A program made the translations under genes and the position numbers. A model generated the notes under the pieces. It was not told the origin of the DNA. It made no database searches and was given only the letters and a program-made list of their open reading frames with translations. Of a DNA stretch of 64,000 nucleotides, positions 5,088-51,300 are shown one piece after another. Positions within the stretch are counted from its first letter, which is position 1. Every line of letters starts with the position of its first letter. The stretch spans positions 34,019,820 to 34,083,819 of the forward strand of contig OY727096.1 of NCBI GenBank assembly GCA_963402885.1, written 5' to 3'. This DNA comes from Antedon bifida. Taxonomy: Eukaryota > Echinodermata > Crinoidea > Comatulida > Antedonidae.

Positions 5088-5094
5088 ATTATAC
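5088..5094. repeat. Target site duplication, left (ATTATAC)
   Basis: The 7 bases before the left terminal repeat are identical to the 7 bases after the right one (11548-11554). P superfamily elements usually make 8-bp duplications. Extending to 8 gives one mismatch. Confidence 0.7.
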
Positions 5095-5128
5095 CATGGA
5101 GAAATAAGTTAGGAAGGAGTAACATCGA
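5095..5128 (+). repeat. Left terminal inverted repeat, 34 bp
   Basis: Begins CATGGAGAAATAAGTTAGGA and continues to 5128. It is a perfect 34/34 inverted match to 11514-11547. Just inside lies TAATCCAATTA (5145-5155), found again in direct orientation near the other end (11471-11481), a possible subterminal transposase-binding site. Confidence 0.95.
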
Positions 5129-6166
5129 TGTAATGCATGGATTTTAATCCAATTAAGCACATTACATGGTCAAATGACTCCTATTAAATTGCACTGCGAC
5201 CGCCCGCCGCGTTATCTCGGTTCGATCTCCTTACACACAAGGCTCCTCGCCGCTAAGTAGCAACCCCTATACCCTGTCTAACTAACAGTGGAGTACATAA
5301 ATACGAACAAAAAACACATTGCATATGCGCAGTTAATTGTCAACAAGGATTCACATGCGTGTTTTATGTATTCGGATTCCGAATTTTTTTGCGAACGTAC
5401 CAGTCATTAAATCATTAAAATCAACCAAAAATAACTACTTGTTTCTTCAATTGTAAGTATTCCATTATTTTGAATATAACAACGAAACAAACACGTATTT
5501 TAATAGTTTCCCTTTGTACTGGAGTTTTAAGTTTTAGTTATATGAATAAAGGAAAGCTGTAGCTTTCATTTGATGCCTTGCATGACAGTTTCCGATGGTG
5601 TCCGGCTGACATACAACGAATTGAAAAGCATCGAATCTGTCCGACCGCCGAACCGAATAGCCGGAGTTAGTTCCACCGGTCGTAGTTATTTTGGTCCACC
5701 GGTCGTTGTATTACTTAGGCCTAGCTAGGTCTAGGGCAGTTATTGTTTCGATGTTTAATTTAGGCTAGGTCTTAGATTTAAATTTTAAACCAATAAATAA
5801 TAACTAACATTAGCCATAAAATAATTACTTTCGTAGGCCTACTACTACTACTAGCTAGGCTAGGACTAAAGTACTCGACTCCTAGCTAGGGTCTAGTCCT
5901 ACTAGCTAGGCTAGACCTAGGCCTACCTATTGTTCTATGTACTATTTATCATAGAGGTAATGTTAATCTACCACCTAGGGTTATGCCAAAAATACCAATA
6001 CTACTATCTAGGGCCGGCCTAATTAGACTATGTTCAATAACATTAACAATAAAAAAAAGCAGGTATTTATTTTTAGTTAGCTAGCCTAGATAGTACTACT
6101 ACTAGGACAACAACTCTAGGTCATCATTCGCCATTTAAATTAAATTGCTCTTGTTTTCAGAGAACG

Positions 6167-9100
6167 ATGACAGGACACAGTGTTTGTTTGAAACCTACTT
6201 GTCGACTTTGTGGAATTTCCAGGGCGATTCCTTCAGATCGTTCACCTTATACAAAGGACGCGTTCAAGTCTGTAATCAAGTCATGTTTTTGCTTAGATAT
6301 TGATAATGATGATCCAGAAATCCACCCACCATTTATTTGTTATTCCTGTGTGCAAAAACTGAAAAGGTGGAAGAAAGGCCACAGCAAGGACCGCAGTAAA
6401 GTGTGCAATATTGTAATTGCAAAATTCAATGATTCTCAATGTGCGTCTTGTATGACTGATGGGGAGATTCCTACCAATCTTCACGATTACAGAAAGGAAG
6501 CAGAAAAATGTAGCCTTGTCTCTTTGTTTCCACATGAAGATGAATTACTAATAATTAGACTTTCACCAACTGGTGATGCTGTCATCAAGTTAACAGTCAA
6601 CAGTGATTCGACATGGGGAGTTGTCATTGCTGGTGTTGTATTGCAAGCACAGCCTATTCTAGGAGAAGTCTTTAACAAAAAATTACCATTACATCAGTTC
6701 ACCAAGCTGTGTGATATATTGAGGAGTGCTAAAATCTGTGCAGGCAATGAAGATTATTTAGATTTGATAGAGAGACGAAAAGGACCAGAAGGGCAGATTC
6801 CTATAAGGATAACACCAAAAGATGTCTATTTATGCAACACCATTAGACATAATGACTGTGAATTGCTAATTGCTGAGGATCTGAAGCGGTGCGCAGTTTG
6901 CCGAATTTATCGTGGGGATTTATCATCAATGCGAAGTGCTTCCTGCAAGGAAAAGTCTTCACTGACGGTAGCCAACAAGTATTTATCAAATTCTCAACTG
7001 CAGAACAAAGCAGCAACATTACAATGTAATTACAGACGGTTGAAAAGAAAGAGTGGTTCCCTTGAGAATAAAGTTTCCAAGATGTACATGCTAGAAAGCA
7101 AATTAATTTCTGAAAATGCAGCTCACTTAATGGAAGACACAATGGAAATGGGAAAACCTGAAATTGAGAGTTTATTATGTAAATATCCGTCAGCAAAGCT
7201 TTTGTGGGAGCAGCAACTGGCATCTATGGGCAAGGGAAAGCAGATGCGTTGGCACCCGGCAATTTTACGTTGGTGCATTGCTATCCAAAGCAAGTCTCCG
7301 TCAGCTTATAATTTAATTCGCGAAAGTGGATTCATGACGCTGCCTCATCCAAACACACTCCAACCCTACAGCCACTTTGCTGGTGTGACAACTGGTTTTT
7401 GCCATGAGATGTTAAGTAGAGTTGTAACAGACCTCAAATTATATGAAGAAGGTAATGAATTGCAAAAACATGTTGTGCTATTATTTGATGAAATGAAGAT
7501 AAAATCAGGATTGGTTTTTTCACAAAGCTCTGGCAAAGTTGTTGGATCAACAGATGTAGGCAGCTTAGCCAATGAGATGCATTCATTTGAGCGGCGATGT
7601 CGAGGTGAAGAAGAAATCCCAGTTGCCTCACATGTTCTGGTGTTGATGATCCGGGGTTTGTTTTCTAACCTGCATGTTCCAATTGCCTACTATCCAACAA
7701 CTGGAGCTTCTAGTTGTGATCTGTTCATGGCAATGTGGGAAGCTGTTGAGATGATCGAAGTAGCTGGGTTTGTAGTTCATGCGATGGTTTCTGATGGTGC
7801 CACTCCGAACAGGAAGTTTTACAGACTGCATTCACCATCATCTACCACTTCATCCATTGTCTTCAAGACATCGCATCAGGGAGACCCAGATCGCAGTGTT
7901 TTTTTCTACAGTGATGTGCCGCATCTAATAAAGACGCTTCGAAACAATGTAGAGAACTCTGGCTACAATAACAAGACACGGAATCTTCATGTAAGTACTG
8001 TATGATCATACACCACATTGAAAATACCAATTTCATTATAGCATGTTGAAAATGATATTTACTTATTTCTAAATCTAAAAATGTTCTTCATTTAAAGTAT
8101 AACAAACAAGACATCAAGTGGAGTCATTTTCTTGACACCTATGAATGGGATGTGAAATTGCAGAACACATGTCCAGGGCTGAGGATGCTCCACAAGTTGA
8201 CGCATGAACACCTCCACCTTACTCCATCATTGAGAATGCGGGTATACTTGGCTGCACAGGTAATTACTTGCAAGTTTTGTGTTCAGCCCTTGTTCTTTTG
8301 CAAACAATTCTGTAATTTAATTTTTCATGAATGTTTTTTATTTTCTTCATATTTTCAGGTGTTAAGCAATTCGACAGCAAATGCAATGGAGATTATGGAT
8401 CGACATGACATGACATCCACTATCAAATTTGTTAGAATGGTAGACCAATTTTTTGATTGCCTTAATGTCTCTAGTTTTTTCCAAGGCAAACGATCCAGAA
8501 AACCAGCTATGGAGCCATACAGGACAAAAGATGACTGGCGTTTTAAGGTACATTTTTTTTAAATAGAAAATTTAAAAAAAATTGAACATGGGACATGATT
8601 GGGCTTATTATTGTTTTTGTTCAATTTCAATTAGCATTTGGATATACATTGAGAAATATCTATAATTTTTGTATTAATCGAAGGAATAATTGCCACTATT
8701 TTTTGTTCTGATGTTTTTAAGTGGTTGCAAGATGACTTCCTGGGTTTCTTTAAAGAATGGCAAGACGAGGTGAATGCGCTTGAAGATGTAGAGAAGAGTG
8801 TAAAAAAGAGGATGTTATTAAGCACCGCAACACTTGATGGACTTGAGATAACAAGCAAGTACATTTCGTTTTTTTTTTACAGCTGACTTTGTTTAATAAT
8901 TAATCAAAAGTTCTGACATCACAAGAGTGACAAAGTATATTAAAAATGAATTAATAATAAGTATATTAATTTTTATTCTTTGCCATCAACAGTTAATTCG
9001 TTTGTAGAGTTGACTAAAAAACTACTGGACCTGCCAGGGGTAGAGTGTGTTCTAAGTGCGAAGTATAATCAAGATCCGTTGGAACAGTACTTCAGTAAAC

Positions 9101-9282
9101 AGAGAGGATGTGGTGGAAGTAACACAAACCCAACATCAATGCAGTTTGGCCACAATATGCATGCACTGTATGTAGCTGCGAACTGTTCCAAGGCATCCAG
9201 GAGAGGCAACTGCCGCAGCCAAATTGTTGACCAAACTATTGATGACTCACCTCTTCAAAGGAAGAAGACACCAAATGCATAA
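6167..9282 (+). CDS. P-element/THAP9-like transposase, 865 aa, five coding exons
   Basis: Cut-and-paste transposase of the host element. Exons: 6167-7990, 8098-8259, 8359-8547, 8722-8854, 8993-9282; total 2,598 nt with every junction in frame. ATG 6167 lies 7 bases after an acceptor-like TTGTTTTCAG, so a 5' non-coding exon is likely. The N-terminus (about residues 12-67) has CRLC followed by PPFICYSC, a Cx2C...Cx2C zinc-binding layout, not a THAP finger. RNase-H-like core: Asp441 (LLFDEMKIKSG), Asp543 (MVSDGATPN), Asp583 (FYSDVPHLIKTLRNN) and Glu800 (DPLEQYFSK), followed by the GG..TNPT..QF signature. Exon 2 supplies the KLTHEHLHLTPS.RMRVYLAAQ segment typical of the family. Intron 4 needs a GC donor (ACAA/GCAAGT); the nearby GT would give an immediate stop. 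Family assignment is firm; activity is inferred. Confidence 0.9.
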
Positions 9283-9408
9283 ATGATATTTATGATCAGC
9301 AAACTTTTTCAAACCAAACGGTTCTTTTCAGAACCAACCAAAATACAATTGAGATTTAATTTAGCTATTGTCGTTATTTATTTCATCACACACACAAAAT
9401 AGTATATA

Positions 9409-11268
9409 TTACAACAATTCTTTTCTGAGAGATTTTTCACCCTTTTTTGAAACTTTGCCGCTTTCCTTCTTTAAATTCAAGTATACCTTGAGGAATGCAT
9501 TAGCTCTGATTTTCAACCAGTATCTAACTACAATTTGTAATAATTGAGCAGAAGCATTGTCACCTAGTGTATCTCTGGTTATTCTGCACCAGAAAGTTTG
9601 AACATTCTCCTTATTGATAATACGGTCATACAAATCAGCCAGATAGTTACTATTTAACATCGTATTAAGTTTATTTGTAGCTAAATGCTGCCTTGTTTCT
9701 ATTTCAACGCTTCTAAAAAACAGATATACATCATCATCAACAACAAACAAACCTGATCTATTTTGTTTGTCGATCCATTCTTTGGAATAGTCGTAGAAGG
9801 AATGGGTTACGTTGGTACTACACACTTGCCACTTAGTGAGCACATCACAGTAGGCTCTGGCAGTACTACTTTTACCCTTTCGAAATCTTTTCACAAGCGC
9901 ATAAGGCACATAACCGGCAACGTACCGAATTATCTTTTCTGTGTGAACATCCAACTGTGGGATGTCAGTTACCGTTTCCTCATGTGGCAAATCTATTTTA
10001 TGCTTATCATTTAGAATTAACCTTAACATTGTACGTTGCAAAAATAGGTTCAGTGTTTTTACATGCTGCCCATCAGAGTTGACATTTAGCTCCTTTAACA
10101 GGGTGACCCACCTTCCCAAACTTGTACACATGTGTTGGTGAAATGCCCGGCACATCATCTCATCAGCTTCTGGTTTCATTTTCTTTGTGTTTCCTGATGT
10201 TATTACCTTCCAAAGTAATTTTGTACTGTCTTCCCAAAATGTTTTTATAATGACTGTATTTGAGTGCTTCTGCAGATCATTTGCCAATTTTTTCACTTGA
10301 CGAGCTATTGGATACAAGTCATTGCTGTATACTGGATCGTTCGCTAACATGGTAAAAGCAGCATCAACGTATTCATTAACCCTGCTGACAGCTTCATCTT
10401 CACTAAACTTATTGGAGGGTCGGTTGATGCCTGAAAATACAGAAAAGAAAGATTATTGAGCATACAACAGTTTTAATAAATGATGAGAATGCATTTAATA
10501 TAGTAAAGATGAAATGTTCAAAATAAAATGTTATCATTCGTTCAAAATCCTTACTCTTTTTCCTTGATTGGTTTTTGGCTGGGTTTGTTGACACTTCCTT
10601 CTTCTGATGGGTTGCGGTAATAGTAGTTGGATGTAGGCCTACACTAACATCCATACCTAAATAGCATAATAAAATTGAAAATTAACTCATGTTGTCCTAT
10701 AAGAATGAAAAATAATAATTTATCTAAAAAATACAGACTAATACTAATACTAATGGTTTGAGGTCTTGACAAGGTCATAGATGAGTTGGTTGCATCAGAT
10801 GATAATCGTGCCTTCATAATTAATATAATAATATGAATGATGCATTATTGATGATTGTGCAATAAAATTAATGATATATTAGGCCTAGGCCTCCTATAGG
10901 GGGAAATCCATGGATGGATAGATTATAGGGCCTAGCCTAGCTAGACCTATCAATAAATCGGGCGGCTAATTTTTGGCGTACAGAAAGAAAAACTACAAAA
11001 ATACTACCTAGCCTAGAGAGGACGAACGAATTCAGAATTATCGTTGTTACAATCAACCCGGTCGTGTAGACAGCCTAGAGTGGGCCGGGGCAGACGAGGC
11101 CTCTTTAAAAGAGAAGAGGTTCAGGTAACTAGGCCTAGCTACTAAACTTAAATGCAATGCCTAGTTTTAACCTAGCATACCATTTTCCAGGTCTTCATGT
11201 TCGCTGGCAAACTTCAATTCCTCGAGAATTCCGGGTTCCAATTCGTCCTCCAATTCATAAAAATCCAT
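9409..11268 (-). CDS. Convergent second gene of the transposon, 403 aa, unknown function
   Basis: Three exons on the minus strand: 11181-11268, 10555-10656, 9409-10430. Total is 1,212 nt with GT-AG introns and frame kept throughout (phases 1 and 1). The short acidic N-terminus (MDFYELEDELEPG) is followed by a basic, Lys-rich stretch (KKEVSTNPAKNQSRKK), then a mostly helical body and a very basic C-terminus. The segment IIRYVAGYVPYALVKRF resembles the Y.AGYV..K motif seen in C-terminal parts of several DNA-transposon proteins; this is suggestive only. No zinc finger or catalytic triad is evident. It sits inside the terminal repeats, tail-to-tail with the transposase, so it travels with the element. 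Possible roles: transposition accessory or regulator, or captured host gene. I do not recognise the family. Confidence 0.8.
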
Positions 11269-11513
11269 AATGATAAATAAAACGCGTAAACAAAATGTAT
11301 CGAGTGTGGTATAATTATTCTTCTGCTGTGTGTATGGTCGCCGCGTGTGTAGATCAGCATCAACAACGAGTCTCGCTTGATGACGCGTCACATGAAAGCA
11401 ATGGATATGCGCATGCTCAAATCTAACAAGCGACAGATCAACGGCAATTAAATGTTACGTAACAGTCAGATAATCCAATTAGCGGCGGGGTGGCCTATTC
11501 GTTTGATGTATTC

Positions 11514-11547
11514 TCGATGTTACTCCTTCCTAACTTATTTCTCCATG
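11514..11547 (-). repeat. Right terminal inverted repeat, 34 bp
   Basis: Exact reverse complement of 5095-5128, ending ...TTATTTCTCCATG, directly followed by the ATTATAC target duplication (11548-11554). Confidence 0.95.
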
Positions 11548-11554
11548 ATTATAC
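11548..11554. repeat. Target site duplication, right (ATTATAC)
   Basis: Matches 5088-5094. It lies about 30 bp beyond the putative STX8 poly(A) signal (in STX8 sense), so the insertion point is at or just past the STX8 transcript end. Confidence 0.7.
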
Positions 11555-34916: not shown

Positions 34917-35173
34917 AAAAAAGATGTTAAATGTGCTCTCCCTGCCTCAGCACTAAGGCCCTGCCACAGCCTTTTGGGGTCGTTTCCAGCACATCACCAG
35001 ATGCATTGATGTTGTCGCCTCATGATGTGTGGTGGAAAGGGGGACGTATAATTCTGTGAACCCCAAACACAGTGGCCGCATGCCTTTAACTCTATTCCAC
35101 CGACCAGCGTGGGAATCGAACCCACGACATACGTGTTGTCAACACGACGCTCAGCCGACTGAGCTAACTGATC
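34917..35173 (-). mobile_element. tRNA-derived SINE, copy 1
   Basis: On the minus strand it starts with a tRNA-like head (35101-35173), continues with a body of about 170 bp (including CACTGTGTTTGGGG, CATCATGAGGCGACA and GGCTGTGGCAGGGCC) and ends at a T-rich run near 34920. A diverged copy lies at about 37245-37450, showing it is a repeated family. Confidence 0.7.
35101..35173 (-). tRNA. tRNA-Val(GAC)-like cloverleaf at a SINE head
   Basis: The 73-nt minus-strand sequence folds completely: acceptor stem GATCAGT/GCTGGTC (7 bp with G-U pairs), D arm GCTC-AGTCGGCT-GAGC, anticodon loop TTGACAA (GAC), 5-nt variable loop, and T arm GTGGG-TTCGATT-CCCAC. There is one T-T mismatch at the base of the anticodon stem. 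The adjoining SINE body argues for a retroposon head over a functional tRNA gene. Confidence 0.5.
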
Positions 35174-42483: not shown

Positions 42484-42714
42484 AATGAACAAGGAGAATG
42501 CAGTTGATTCTGCACTATTTATACCGACATCATCAGCAACAGCAAACAGTCTAACTGGAGAATGAACAAGGAGAATGCCATTGATTCTGCACTATTTATA
42601 CCGACATCATCAGCAACAGCAAACAGTCTAACTGGAGAATGAACAAGGAGAATGCCATTGATTCTGCACTATTTGTACCGACATCATCAGCAACAGCAAA
42701 CAGTCTAACTGGAG
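42484..42714. repeat. 77-bp triplication at the 3' end of the cyclase-family gene
   Basis: Three head-to-tail 77-bp copies (42484-42560, 42561-42637, 42638-42714) differ at only a few bases. Two copies read TTTATACC where the coding one reads TTTGTACC. Because 77 is not a multiple of 3, each copy is read in a different frame. Confidence 0.95.
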
Positions 42715-44039
42715 CACCACTGCCATCCTTAATCTTGATAGGTAAAGCGTAAACCGTGCTTCCTGTTGTCGGTAGCTGATCGAGGTTGGCAACGTTTTCC
42801 AATCCATATATGTTTTGTTCATACAGTTTTACATGTGCAGAAAAAGTAAGGCTCGGACCATAGTCAATAGATGGCGTATCGATACCAACCCCAACGACAT
42901 CACGATTAATAATCAACCAATTGGCAGCTTCGGGACTAACTCCTGGAAAATGAAGAAGAGACTTCCCGTTTTCATCTGTGAAAGAGTCGTTACGATCCGA
43001 GCCAAAGTATGCTGTACGATTTGGGTAAAATCGTCCCCAATCCGTAAACACCATTAAGATAGCACCATTTGGTATGATGCCATTTTCTTCTTCCCAGCTC
43101 TTTAAATCTTCAACTTCGAGTAACGCGTCAGAATTTATGGATGCCTTTTCTGATATATCCACCTTAATACCAGGGCCAAATAAATGTTCCTTTGGTATAT
43201 CATGGATCCTCTGTTTACCCTCAGAAAAGTGTGAAGGGGCATCTATGTGTGTTCCTGAATGTTCGCCCATTTCAAATTTATTTGACTCATACCTTGAAAT
43301 ACAAAATAAAATCTGAAATTATTTAACGACTTTGGCCATATTAAAAAAACAATTGTTTAGCATTTTTTCCCCTAAATATGGGAATAATGTATATTAATGC
43401 AGCCTAAATCTGAAAATTGAACTGTTTATTTTGCCTTTTTAATAAGCGAAATACATGTAATTTCTTTTGATTTTTCATGTTTTGGGGGACAAATACATCT
43501 TTATTTAATGTTATAAGGATAATTTTATTTTGGGGAAAAAAATCTTAATCGAATTTTACCACTATGCGCATGTGCAATTAAAATGTAAAGGGATTTGTAG
43601 AGCCTTGGGCGGTTAGTAAAGTACATAGGCCTACTATCAATGTTTGTAACGGGAACTGTAAAAAAAAAACACGCCAGATTAATTAATTTATTTTATCATA
43701 AAAGAACTACACTACATATAGGCCTAGCTGGTGGTAATAGTGCTTACTATTATGTGTCCAATTTAAGAATCATAATAATGCTATAGCTATAATAGTTACA
43801 ACTAAAATGATCTTAAACGTCCGGGTTGCGTTTTCCTACCCGTGAATGACTTACCAGAAAACACCTGTTGGACCCCGCTGGACAATCGTATGAACAAACC
43901 GATCGCTCCCTGGCCAAAACAAGGTTTCCTCATCGTAAGAATAGCTTAGATCAATAATAACGTTCTTGTCACCATGATCACATGAAACAAAAACAAAGCA
44001 AAACTGAAACGCTACTGTAATACTAAGCATTAGAATCAT
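42596..44039 (-). CDS. Secreted cyclase-family (kynurenine-formamidase-like) hydrolase, 293 aa, two exons
   Basis: Member of the metal-dependent cyclase/hydrolase family that includes bacterial kynurenine formamidase. Exons: 43855-44039 and 42596-43292; 882 nt in frame. ATG 44039 is followed by a signal-like hydrophobic segment (MILMLSITVAFQFCFVFVSC). Then come DLSYSYDEETLFWPG, the metal-site motif GEHSGTHIDAPSHF (His-x-Gly-Thr-His-x-Asp-x-Pro-x-His-Phe), DWGRFYPNR, HFPGVS, VGIDTPSIDYG and PVRLFAV, in family order. The last residues come from the second copy of a 77-bp triplication read out of frame, ending LLLLMMSV. A single-copy version would also have ended in a hydrophobic tail, suggesting a C-terminal membrane or GPI-type signal. 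The natural substrate is unknown; animal homologues with signal peptides are not established formamidases. Confidence 0.85.
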
Positions 44040-45384: not shown

Positions 45385-48300
45385 ATGGACGCAGTTTTGA
45401 GAATTCTAATGCTCACGGAATTCATTTGTAAGTATACTTATTCCATTCATTTAATTGCGAAATTTTGTTTGAGTGTAGCACATCCGACATACGGTGAATA
45501 TTCTGCTCCCGATGAAGATTTTAAAAGCATCAATTGCTCAAGGATCTTGAAAGATAGTTTCCTAGTTTCTGTTAACAAAATGATTAAATCTTAGCGTCTA
45601 CCAAGCTATCAACAACTACACCTAATCTTATCTCCGGGAGAACTTTATTGAAAAGTATCACTGTTATGGGTAGGCCCACTGATAATGAAGAATATCTTTA
45701 GAATTCAAAAAAATATTGAATACAAACTATATTGAATGGTAGGATAATAAATGTATTTAAATGTTATTCCAGCTACAGCATTCAGTATGCCAACAGTGCC
45801 TTATTTCACCACCGAGGAGCAACGAAGTAAGTAATGGTCATCTTATGCCAATAATCATTTTGTTTCGTTTTGTTTATTTAGTTGACCAGCATAAAATAAA
45901 AACAGATTTTAAAAAAGAGATGAAAAAATGCTGGGCAGCTTAAGCAAAAAACATGTTTTAGTATTTACAAACAACCTTTTACTATATTTTAAGCAACGTT
46001 AGATTTTCGTTTTTTTGTAAATTAAGATTAGATAAGGAGGCCGCGAAATTAGCCACGAGTCTCATGGCTATGTTTGCTATTTGGCCCGGCTCCGCGAGAC
46101 TTGTCTCAAAACTATAATATATAGTAATAAATTGCTTAAATAAATAAAATGTGTGATGATTAAAGCAAAACAAGTTCCAAATGATTATTAATGAAATGGA
46201 AATTTCGATATAGGCATAGTATTTATATAACTTTCTGTACTTGTCTAAAATATTAGCGTATGACTGTTCTGGAAAAATACCGGGAAAGTATTACGTAGAT
46301 CCGGAGGACCGTTCGTACTTCTACAGCTGTCTGGGGTCGACGTCAGTGGTTTTACGGTGCAACCCTCCAGATCTAGTATACTTTGAATCAAGAGGGTACT
46401 GTGATTACCCTATCTACACCGAAGAACTGGCAACTGATGATGTCACTCATCAAGCTGAGGAAGTGGTTACACAAATTTCAACGTCAGCAAAAATTGGTAC
46501 AAGTAAAGCAACTGAAAATGTTGAAGGTAAGAGACGCATTTTAGGGAGTGCGAAATAACATGATCATGATGAAAGGCTGAAGTTATGTCTCATTTTGCGC
46601 CCCGTGAATTTAGGCCTATATTATCTGGTTGCCATGGACATATAACATAGATAAACAATATACATTCTAGGCCTATGGCACATCCACCCTAAACAAATGT
46701 TATTTATTTAACTTTTTGTATGAATGAGCAGTTTTTGTTTACGTTTCACAGATTGGGTTTCGGTAAATTTTACATAGGCCTACCTTTATTTAATTTAATT
46801 TCAGTTTTTACATGCAAAAATAAAGACAATTTTGGGATGTACAAAGACGATGAAGATCCAAATAAATACTATTGGTGTGTACATGGATATGTGCATCACA
46901 TGGAGTGCCAGCCTGGCCTAGTATTTGATCCGCCGACAAACGCTTGTCAATATGAATTGACAGTAGTAACAGAAAGTAATGCTGTTAAGACTGTACAGAT
47001 AACAAAGACAACAATTGATGTGACGTCAAAGATGCCAGTTAGGCCTTCACACGACCGTGAGTTCCAAGTAATTTCTACATTTTTATAGATAATCCGGTAC
47101 GCCAACGAAAACTATGCAGGATATAAATCCAACTTAAGCGATTTAAATTGTAAACAAGTATTTCGAAAATGAATGTGTCCACTTATATAATGATATATTT
47201 ATCATAATATTATTATCACTTTAATGCCTCTTAAAATTTCTCCTCATCTCGTGTGAAGATGTCTCCTTGAGGGGTGTCCTGAATAGGGGTGTCTCAAAGG
47301 AGGGGTTCTACTGTACGTACAAAAATATGTCAATGACTTAAACTGACTTTTTATTTAAATAGCATTTGTGTGTCCAGAAGAAGGGAAAGAAGGGTTGTAT
47401 GCAAATCCATACGACATTTCAACATATTACCAATGCTCAGAATCTGGACGATTTTGGTTAATGAAATGTCCGTGGTCATTAGTGTTCAACCAAGCAGAGG
47501 GTATTTGCGATTATGAAGAAAATATACGAGATATTGGAACTACCGAATCATCCACTACCGAAAAAGAATACATACCTCAACCTTCTACGCATTACGAGAA
47601 CCACATTGGAACAACCGAAGCATCCACTACCAAAAAAGAATACATACCTCAACCTTCTATGCATTACGAAGACCACATTGTCACAACAGAAGCATCCACT
47701 ACCGAAAAAGAATACATACCTCAACCTTCTACGCATTACGAGGACCACATTGGAACTACCGAAGCATCCACTACCAAAAAAGAATACATACCTCAACCTT
47801 CTACGCATTACGAGGACCACATTGGAACTACCGAAGCATCCACTACCAAAAAAGAATACATACCTCAACCTTCTACGCATTACGAGGACCACATTGGAAC
47901 TACCGAAGCATCCACTACCAAAAAAGAATACATACCTCAACCTTCTACGCATTACGAGGACCACATTGTTACAACCGAAGCATCCACTACCGAAAAAGAA
48001 TACATACCTCAACCTTCTACGCATTACGAGGACCACATTGTTACAACCGAAGCATCCACTACCAAAAAAGAATACATACCTCAACCTTCTACGCATTACG
48101 AGGACCACATTGGAACTACCGAAGCATCCACTACCAAAAAAGAATACATACCTCAACCTTCTACGCATTACGAGGACCACATTGTTACAACCGAAGCATC
48201 CACTACCGAAAAAGAATACATACCTCAACCTTCTACGCATTACGAAGACCACATTGTTACAACCGAAGCATCCACTACCGAAAAAGAATACATACCTCAA

Positions 48301-51300
48301 CCTTCTACGCATTACGAGGACCACATTGGAACAACCGAAGCATCCACTACCAAAAAAGAATACATACCTCAACCTTCTACGCATTACGAGGACCACATTG
48401 TTACAACCGAAGCATCCACTACTGAAAAAGAATACATACCTCAACCTTCTACGCATTACGAGGACCACATTGGAACTACCGAAGCATCCACTACCGAAAA
48501 AGAATACATACCTCAACCTTCTACGCATTACGAGGACCACATTGGAACAACCGAAGCATCCACTACCGAAAAAGAATACATACCTCAACCTTCTACGCAT
48601 TACGAGGACCACATTGGAACTACCGAAGCATCCACTACCAAAAAAGAATACATACCTCAACCTTCTACGCATTACGAGGACCACATTGGAACTACCGAAG
48701 CATCCACTACCAAAAAAGAATACATACCTCAACCTTCTACGCATTACGAGGACCACATTGTTACAACCGAAGCATCCACTACCAAAAAAGAATACATACC
48801 TCAACCTTCTACGCATTACGAGGACCACATTGGAACTACCGAAGCATCCACTACCAAAAAAGAATACATACCTCAACCTTCTACGCATTACGAGGACCAC
48901 ATTGGAACTACCGAAGCATCCACTACCAAAAAAGAATACATACCTCAACCTTCTACGCATTACGAGGACCACATTGGAACTACCGAAGCATCCACTACCA
49001 AAAAAGAATACATACCTCAACCTTCTACGCATTACGAGGACCACATTGGAACTACCGAAGCATCCACTACCGAAAAAGAATACATACCTCAACCTTCTAC
49101 GCATTACGAGGACCACATTGGAACTACCGAAGCATCCACTACCGAAAAAGAATACATACCTCAACCTTCTACGCATTACGAGGACCACATTGGAACTACC
49201 GAAGCATCCACTACCAAAAAAGAATACATACCTCAACCTTCTACGCATTACGAGGACCACATTGGAACTACCGAAGCATCCACTACCAAAAAAGAATACA
49301 TACCTCAACCTTCTACGCATTACGAGGACCACATTGGAACTACCGAAGCATCCACTACCAAAAAAGAATACATACCTCAACCTTCTACGCATTACGAGGA
49401 CCACATTGTTACAACCGAAGCATCCACTACCGAAAAAGAATACATACCTCAACCTTCTACGCATTACGAGGACCACATTGTTACAACCGAAGCATCCACT
49501 ACCGAAAAAGAATACATACCTCAACCTTCTACGCATTACGAGGACCACATTGTTACAACCGAAGCATCCACTACCGAAAAAGAATACATACCTCAACCTT
49601 CTACGCATTACGAGGACCACATTGGAACTACCGAAGCATCCACTACCAAAAAAGAATACATACCTCAACCTTCTACGCATTACGAGGACCACATTGTTAC
49701 AACCGAAGCATCCACTACCGAAAAAGAATACATACCTCAACCTTCTACGCATTACGAGGACCACATTGTTACAACCGAAGCATCCACTACCGAAAAAGAA
49801 TACATACCTCAACCTTCTACGCATTACGAGGACCACATTGTTACAACCGAAGCATCCACTACCAAAAAAGAATACATACCTCAACCTTCTACGCATTACG
49901 AGGACCACATTGGAACAACCGAAGCATCCACTACCAAAAAAGAATACATACCTCAACCTTCTACGCATTACGAGGACCACATTGGAACTACCGAAGCATC
50001 CACTACTGAAAAAGAATACATACCTCAACCTTCTACGCATTACGAGGACCACATTGTTACAACCGAAGCATCCACTACCGAAAAAGAATACATACCTCAA
50101 CCTTCTACGCATTACGAGAACCACATTGGAACTACCGAAGCATCCACTACCGAAAAAGAATACATACCTCAACCTTCTACGCATTACGAGGACCACATTG
50201 GAACTACCGAAGCATCCACTACCGAAAAAGAATACATACCTCAACCTTCTACGCATTACGAGGACCACATTGGAACAACCGAAGCATTCACTACCGAAAA
50301 AGAATACATACCTCAACCTTCTACGCATTACGAGGACCACATTGGAACTACCGAAGCATCCACTACCGAAAAAGAATACATACCTCAACCTTCTACGCAT
50401 TACGAGGACCACATTGGAACAACCGAAGCATTCACTACCGAAAAAGAATACATACCTCAACCTTCTACGCATTACGAGAACCACATTGGAACTACCGAAG
50501 CATCCACTACCGAAAAAGAATACATACCTCAACCTTCTACGCATTACGAGGACCACATTGGAACTACCGAAGCATCCACTACCGAAAAAGAATACATACC
50601 TCAACCTTCTACGCATTACGAGGACCACATTGGAACTACCGAAGCATCCACTACCGAAAAAGAATACATACCTCAACCTTCTACGCATTACGAGGACCAC
50701 ATTGGAACAACAGAAGCATCCACTACCAAAAAAGAATACATACCTCAACCTTCTATGCATTACGAGGACCACATTGGAACTACCGAAAAAAGCAATGAAA
50801 TATCAACATTTCTGACTCAAACCGAAATATTTCCTACTTCAACTTATGATATGTTAGGTAAGTGCTTCTTTTTTTCTTTTTTAAATTTACCGACTTTAAA
50901 AAAAAAATTGATCCGACTTTAGAAACGAATAGTTTAGACGATTCGGTTATAAATCCGTAGTATCATAGGCACATTTCTAAATAAAGATTTGTGTAGTTGT
51001 GTAATGTGTAGTAGTAGTTCCTTATTTTGATACGTCGTCGGCCACCGTGCGTATGCCAGCGGTTTAGTGAGGCAACCACTATAATGTCCTATAATCTAAT
51101 AGTTGATAAGTCTATGTGAATAACATCCGAAGCTGTATCAGACCTTTTAATGAACCGTCTACATTTATACATTCCCGCGACATTCTCAACCTATTTCTCA
51201 AACACATAGTTTACTCAAACCAAAATTTACTATGGTCTCATTTCGAATGAGGACAATTGTTAAATGTAATTTGTTAACATGTAAGATATAAACGAAATAA

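Follow-up and report, generated by a model that had tools for sequence, protein, structure and literature searches.

The window analysed here, a stretch of 64,000 nucleotides (nt) from the crinoid Antedon bifida (assembly GCA_963402885.1, contig OY727096.1, positions 34,019,820 to 34,083,819 of the forward strand), contains at positions 5095-11547 a transposon of the P superfamily with two convergent genes, a transposase gene and an accessory gene, the first of which is followed by a predicted histone-type mRNA 3' end. Sequence comparison bore out what a first-pass annotation, made from the letters alone, had claimed of the element's borders: its two 34-nt ends are 100% complementary and a 7-bp target duplication flanks them. 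Five joined exons on the + strand give a transposase of 865 amino acids (aa) whose sole stop is terminal, with three GT-AG introns and a last one with a GC donor, and three joined exons on the - strand give an accessory protein of 403 aa. Splice sites were set by hand from the sequence and both gene structures are predictions; splicing nevertheless reproduced the two unbroken frames of that annotation, and its gap of 126 bp between the convergent stop codons was measured at 9283-9408. Feature coordinates are collected in Table 1.

Above the Pfam cut-off, the + strand protein matches PF21787 TNP-like RNaseH_N (4.3e-24), PF21788 GBD (8e-16) and PF21789 RNaseH_C (1.8e-08), while a P-type helix-turn-helix (HTH) and a zf-AD-like N-terminus (9.5e-05) fall below it; no THAP domain was found in Pfam up to E 10. 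Among 26 aligned sequences of the transposase clade, zf-AD is detected in 14, RAG1_imp_bd in nine and THAP in one at E 0.1. The sole strong solved relative by sequence is the Drosophila P transposase 6p5a (6.5e-21), and the acidic residues D441, D543 and E800 fall inside blocks aligned with it, at positions that we take to be those of its catalytic triad. A structure model of exon 1 retrieves 6pe2 (E 1.1e-12) and 6p5a (1.6e-11) and no others under E 0.001, with low template modelling (TM) scores of 0.24-0.32 against P transposase structures, so that the overall placement of domains in the model is poor. Where a homologue is labelled by species, it belongs to a cnidarian or an echinoderm; the crinoid Anneissia japonica supplies the closest one, with 67% identity across 87%. 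Judged by these matches, the + strand gene is a P-superfamily transposase with a putative zf-AD-like N-terminus in place of THAP.

A search of the 315.6-Mb genome with the left 206 bp of the element, followed by pairing with right ends, found 16 places at 100% identity, window included, as well as two further matches spanning all 206 bp, with identities of 95% and 81%, and some shorter ones. Thirteen of the 16 copies measure 6446-6453 bp, at most 7 bp off the window copy, and the other three 10,024, 7,100 and 3,583 bp; two full-size copies stand in tandem exactly 7 bp apart (G000:C9:27814044-27826956). Three other copies examined in full (L046, L047 and L048) differ from the window copy at 0, 34 and 6 alignment columns, with 0 differences in transposase exons and 2 in accessory exons, and their frames are open at 865 and 403 aa. 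The first-pass annotation had been concerned that other full-length copies might lack the minus-strand gene; it is present in all three. Target duplications of 7 bp flank all four copies examined to both ends (ATATAAC, ATTACAC and CCAAAAC in the three other than the window copy). Because there are 15 more identical left ends and both frames are open in these three copies, the observation is not a product of chance. The family, of cut-and-paste type, was recently active.

An unbiased Rfam scan of the whole window returned one tRNA and one histone 3' stem-loop, the latter an RF00032 match at 9315-9360 on the + strand (35.4 bits at a gathering score of 34, E 1.5e-6). The stem-loop, GGTTCTTTTCAGAACC, begins 37 nt past the transposase stop and reads as a histone loop solely on the transposase strand; its folding energy is -6.9 kcal/mol (z -2.7), with 3 of 200 shuffles equally good. 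It matches the motif GGYYCTTTTMAGRRCC exactly and is the sole match within two mismatches in the 64 kb, the chance of an exact match within the 126-nt gap being 4.9e-7 under a first-order model. Sequences resembling those of host histone ends lie on both sides of it (Table 1); of 20,000 stretches drawn at random from the window, 26 equal or exceed the downstream score of 14/17 to the host consensus. On the + strand no AATAAA or ATTAAA occurs from 9283 to 10474 (~1.2 kb), the first AATAAA standing at 10475. In 401-bp slices from 12 other full-size copies the stem-loop is identical in all 12 and the 57-nt cassette to which it belongs in nine. We regard the presence and conservation of this cassette as practically certain.

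Table 1. Positions of the element's parts within the window.
Feature	Position	Strand	Basis or remark
Target site duplication ATTATAC, left	5088..5094		Read in sequence
Left terminal inverted repeat, 34 bp	5095..5128	+	Left 206 bp at 100% in 16 places, own included
Transposase exon 1	6167..7990	+	zf-AD-like N-terminus, P-type HTH, RNase H N part, start of GTP-binding insertion; D441, D543
Transposase exon 2	8098..8259	+	Piece of GTP-binding insertion domain
Transposase exon 3	8359..8547	+	End of GTP-binding insertion domain
Transposase exon 4	8722..8854	+	Followed by GC-donor intron
Transposase exon 5	8993..9282	+	RNase H C part, acidic E800, stop codon
5' flank TTCAAACCAAAC, host-histone-like	9308..9319	+	Comparison with host histone ends
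Histone 3' stem-loop GGTTCTTTTCAGAACC	9320..9335	+	RF00032; 6-bp stem, 4-nt loop
Histone-downstream-element-like stretch	9347..9363	+	14/17 to host histone consensus, offset 11
Accessory polyadenylation (polyA) signal AATAAA	9377..9382	-	26 nt past accessory stop
Accessory exon 3 with stop codon	9409..10430	-	Hand splicing
Accessory exon 2	10555..10656	-	Hand splicing
Accessory exon 1 with start codon	11181..11268	-	Hand splicing
Right terminal inverted repeat, 34 bp	11514..11547	-	Complementarity and genome search
Target site duplication ATTATAC, right	11548..11554		Read in sequence

The host's own cassette was taken from an RF00032 search of the same genome, in which 75 of 58,233 candidates were scored and 72 exceeded the cut-off; ten places were examined, nine outside the big clusters and one within a cluster. 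Histone genes, named by eye, lie at L021, L022, L025, L026 and L027 and in the cluster piece L030. Their stem-loops follow the stop codon by 29-90 nt in eight of nine cases, the ninth (L030) being without a histone frame in its piece. All nine ends carry CTCAAACCAAAC or a close variant 5' of the stem and, 11-13 nt past it, a AAAAGAGATTTRATTTG-like stretch scoring 13-17 of 17, values that are biased upward because the consensus was drawn from these same ends.

Exact matches to GGYYCTTTTMAGRRCC number 151 genome-wide, against 2 for the reversed-motif control. Among the 100 matches listed, 71 fall in three presumed histone clusters, at C1 19.07-19.11 Mb (34, the one cluster that was read, and that in part), C9 33.2 Mb (18) and C10 10.0 Mb (19); outside the clusters four belong to histone genes that were read, and one is placed near such a gene by its position. 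Twenty more of those listed lie in transposon-type units: 13 are copies of the window family (nine read at the motif, window included, and four placed by coordinates), one belongs to a second P family, and six, arranged as three convergent pairs, lie at Tc1-like transposase and BEN genes. Two of the listed matches are at C8:19.49 Mb, one (L051) looks like chance, and one was counted by position alone. The GGTTC...GAACC form with C in the loop is confined, among the matches read, to the window family and L052. At L052 (G000:C8:19490700-19491100), GGTTCTTTTCAGAACC and the downstream stretch form a host-type cassette behind the end of a short frame, and another motif site, C8:19496184, lies 5.4 kb from it.

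The second P family (L023 and L024; its C1 place also L043 and L044) repeats the arrangement seen in the window. Its transposase, 44% identical to that of the window over a C-terminal piece, is followed after 29 nt by a stem-loop that shows a compensatory change in its third stem pair, C-G here against U-A in the window. Behind the stem-loop, on the opposite strand and convergent, lies an accessory gene with a frame of 374 aa, 27% identical to that of the window, and at this identity the pairing of transposase and accessory protein must be old. In the C1 copy the ends, 32 bp long, start with CATGGAG and the 7-bp duplication is AGTTAAC; all five duplications found (window, three copies and second family) end in AC.

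The same stem-loop also attends BEN-domain and Tc1-like transposase genes at L028 and L029, with DDE_3 at 2.3e-17 in the transposase of L029 and BEN at 8.9e-07 in L028 and 0.0062 in L029. It lies 21-29 nt past the Tc1-like frame (L029, L049 and L050) and 27-183 nt past the longest BEN frame (L028, L029 and L049), and the downstream stretches at both kinds of end in L028 and L029 score 13-15 of 17. The L029 transposase is split over two overlapping frames, and no inverted ends were found in the pieces fetched from these places, which are thus putative mobile units. At L028, L029 (G000:C10:16937500-16941400), L049 and L050 the Tc1-like gene is convergent with the BEN gene and a stem-loop closes both genes of each pair, the paired stem-loops standing ~720-760 bp apart at three places. 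L029 has CAGCCAATCAGA boxes on both outer sides; such boxes are typical of histone promoters.

The best explanation of the whole, and in our judgement a likely one, is a recently active two-gene P transposon whose transposase mRNA would have a histone-type end and S-phase timing; for the S-phase role of the 3' end taken by itself our confidence is moderate. The transposase would act on the 34-bp ends and insert with a 7-bp stagger, its catalysis being predicted. SLBP and U7 of the host would cleave the transposase pre-mRNA a few nt past the stem, leaving it with no polyA tail, and the message would be produced and translated mainly in S phase, in oocytes and in cleaving embryos, and then lost. 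Most likely, this message is synthesised and degraded in S phase as histone messages are. The accessory mRNA, by contrast, would be polyadenylated (the signal is in the sequence, the tail predicted) and remain outside S-phase control. The arrangement suggests that the element jumps in time with DNA replication, as P elements have long been proposed to do: by excising in S phase it would leave replicated for unreplicated DNA and gain copies, a line of reasoning already applied to P and to other elements.

Because Tc1-like genes and their BEN neighbours have the same cassette, the tactic looks to have been used more than once. We lean towards the view that two P families and, unrelated to them, Tc1-like transposases with BEN partners have adopted the host histone cassette, with SLBP and U7 giving tailless, replication-confined mRNAs; these would possibly be the first non-histone genes so run. 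If true, transposons time themselves to S phase by a new route and the range served by SLBP and U7 is widened. The element also provides a P-type transposon lineage with a second conserved gene. A stem-loop at transposase genes of two superfamilies would moreover provide a direct, testable link of the enzyme to replication.

Several observations weigh against this explanation. The Rfam score is just 1.4 bits above its cut-off, and shuffling the window 100 times gives a match to GGYYCTTTTMAGRRCC at two mismatches in 42 cases, so that uniqueness of the motif within 64 kb is no evidence by itself. Three of the 12 sliced copies have a single base change in the downstream stretch, at 9360, and same-family copies are so nearly identical that the features they share show little. 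The P families compared number two, and the C1 copy of the second has lost the 5' part of its transposase; the downstream stretch of that family scores 10/17, no better than chance (31% of random stretches do as well). The transposase gene carries four introns, and replication-dependent histone genes are nearly always intronless, introns being said to disturb this type of 3' end. On the accessory side, no Pfam family, RAG2-like included, scores above the cut-off, and the protein's function is unsupported by any match; no convincing solved relative emerged from the sequence search and no convincing fold match from the structure prediction, which is all-helical.

The introns, and the little that conservation among near-identical copies can tell, also speak for an ordinary two-gene P-superfamily transposon in which the stem-loop was once taken from a histone gene and is now idle, while a weak or remote site serves to polyadenylate the transposase mRNA, and a + strand AATAAA is indeed available at 10475. 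We nevertheless consider this unlikely, since the second family keeps the stem-loop at 44% identity with a compensatory pair change, the cassette recurs at Tc1-like and BEN genes, and 1.2 kb without a polyA signal follows the transposase stop.

Relatives of the accessory protein number three by sequence search and nine in total by profile, the named ones from Anneissia and Acanthaster. The transposase and accessory genes of Anneissia japonica bear consecutive gene numbers (117114750/117114751 and 117106473/117106474) on contigs that are equal in size within each pair, from which we infer that the two genes adjoin at two places. With P-type Pfam domains in the transposase and the gene pair found in other copies, in the second family and at these two Anneissia places, the two-gene lineage of the P superfamily proposed in the first-pass annotation is real. 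Protein conservation and open frames indicate that the accessory protein is probably under selection, and it is most likely a protein travelling with this transposase lineage as a partner of the transposase.

It could instead be cargo, a captured host gene with no role in transposition. The protein has neither a known domain above the cut-off nor a convincing fold match, and the N-termini of two relatives, P0069 (9.5e-05) and P0001 (0.18), from Acanthaster and Anneissia, resemble the latter portion of a PHD finger, below the Pfam cut-off, a type of start common in host chromatin proteins. This PHD-like start is absent from the window protein and from P0003. We hold cargo to be improbable: the second family again pairs a related transposase with a convergent accessory gene, a pairing that the 27% identity marks as old, and by gene number the accessory gene lies beside the transposase at two Anneissia places. 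P0001 and P0069 begin within the finger at an identical point, and an upstream PHD exon may therefore be absent from their gene models.

That the accessory protein is a split-off C-terminal domain of P/THAP transposases is, in our estimate, distinctly improbable. The window transposase does stop soon past the RNase H C part, and hhalign aligns the YVAGY...GLF block of the accessory protein with P0067, a THAP-type relative, in that relative's C-terminal part; at P 0.065, however, this match is not significant, and hmmsearch found no transposase scoring above the reversed-sequence background. A hairpin serving merely as a roadblock or terminator between convergent transcripts, free of SLBP and cell-cycle control, would suit a location between two convergent stops 126 nt apart and the like position of the hairpins between Tc1-like and BEN genes, but is very improbable, as a generic terminator needs neither a histone loop nor a host-type 5' flank nor a downstream stretch, and the loop is histone-like on the transposase strand alone.

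Canonical P and THAP9 elements are not known to encode more than one transposase. The window element has the hallmarks of the P superfamily, short inverted ends and 7- or 8-bp duplications, and departs from a typical P element by its lack of THAP and its second intact gene. It shares with Drosophila P a GTP-binding insertion in the RNase H core, the HTH, ~30-bp ends and cut-and-paste transposition, and differs from it in having two genes, a zf-AD-like N-terminus, 7-bp duplications and a histone-type 3' end; the Drosophila element is described with ~30-bp ends (31 bp), a THAP N-terminus, an acidic C-terminal domain and 8-bp duplications (excerpt of PMC7776569). No P-superfamily element with a second gene or a histone-type 3' end was found described in titles and abstract openings of the open literature, and the family may already have an entry in Repbase. 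The 7-bp duplications, the five here ending in AC, recall Galileo, which differs in its long inverted repeats and THAP domain. To our knowledge no second gene has been described in Galileo. Its duplications are mostly of 7 bp, with consensus GTANTAC (excerpt of PMC4168063).

The transposase gene resembles replication-dependent histone genes in stem-loop, flank, downstream stretch and closeness to the stop codon, and differs from them in being a spliced transposase rather than a histone. An excerpt of PMC2781718 sets out the 3' elements of histone mRNAs and their restriction to S phase, calls the stem-loop unique to these mRNAs, and states that, as of 2009, SLBP had never been implicated in directly regulating non-histone genes.

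ProtoRAG and RAG1/RAG2 are likewise two-gene transposase systems, and likeness extends to the RAG1 importin-binding match and to the PHD-like start of two accessory relatives. RAG2 carries a PHD. The window core is however of P type, not Transib/RAG1, and its duplication measures 7 bp, not the 5 bp of RAG/Transib-type elements (excerpt of PMC8355894). RAG1 importin-binding-like N-termini stand on P-type transposases in nine of the 26 aligned sequences; P-type transposons may be the source of the RAG1 N-terminal part, and likewise of N-RAG-TP, an element of Aplysia.

Elsewhere in the window, an open frame of 1187 aa at 47359-50922 consists mostly of near-identical repeats (GTTEASTTEKEYIPQPSTHYEDHI) behind a start that, by eye, seems chitin-binding-like, and a 240-aa frame at 42596-43318 on the - strand resembles, again by eye, a kynurenine formamidase-type cyclase. 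The tRNA gene of the Rfam scan lies at 35101-35173 on the - strand (53.4 bits).

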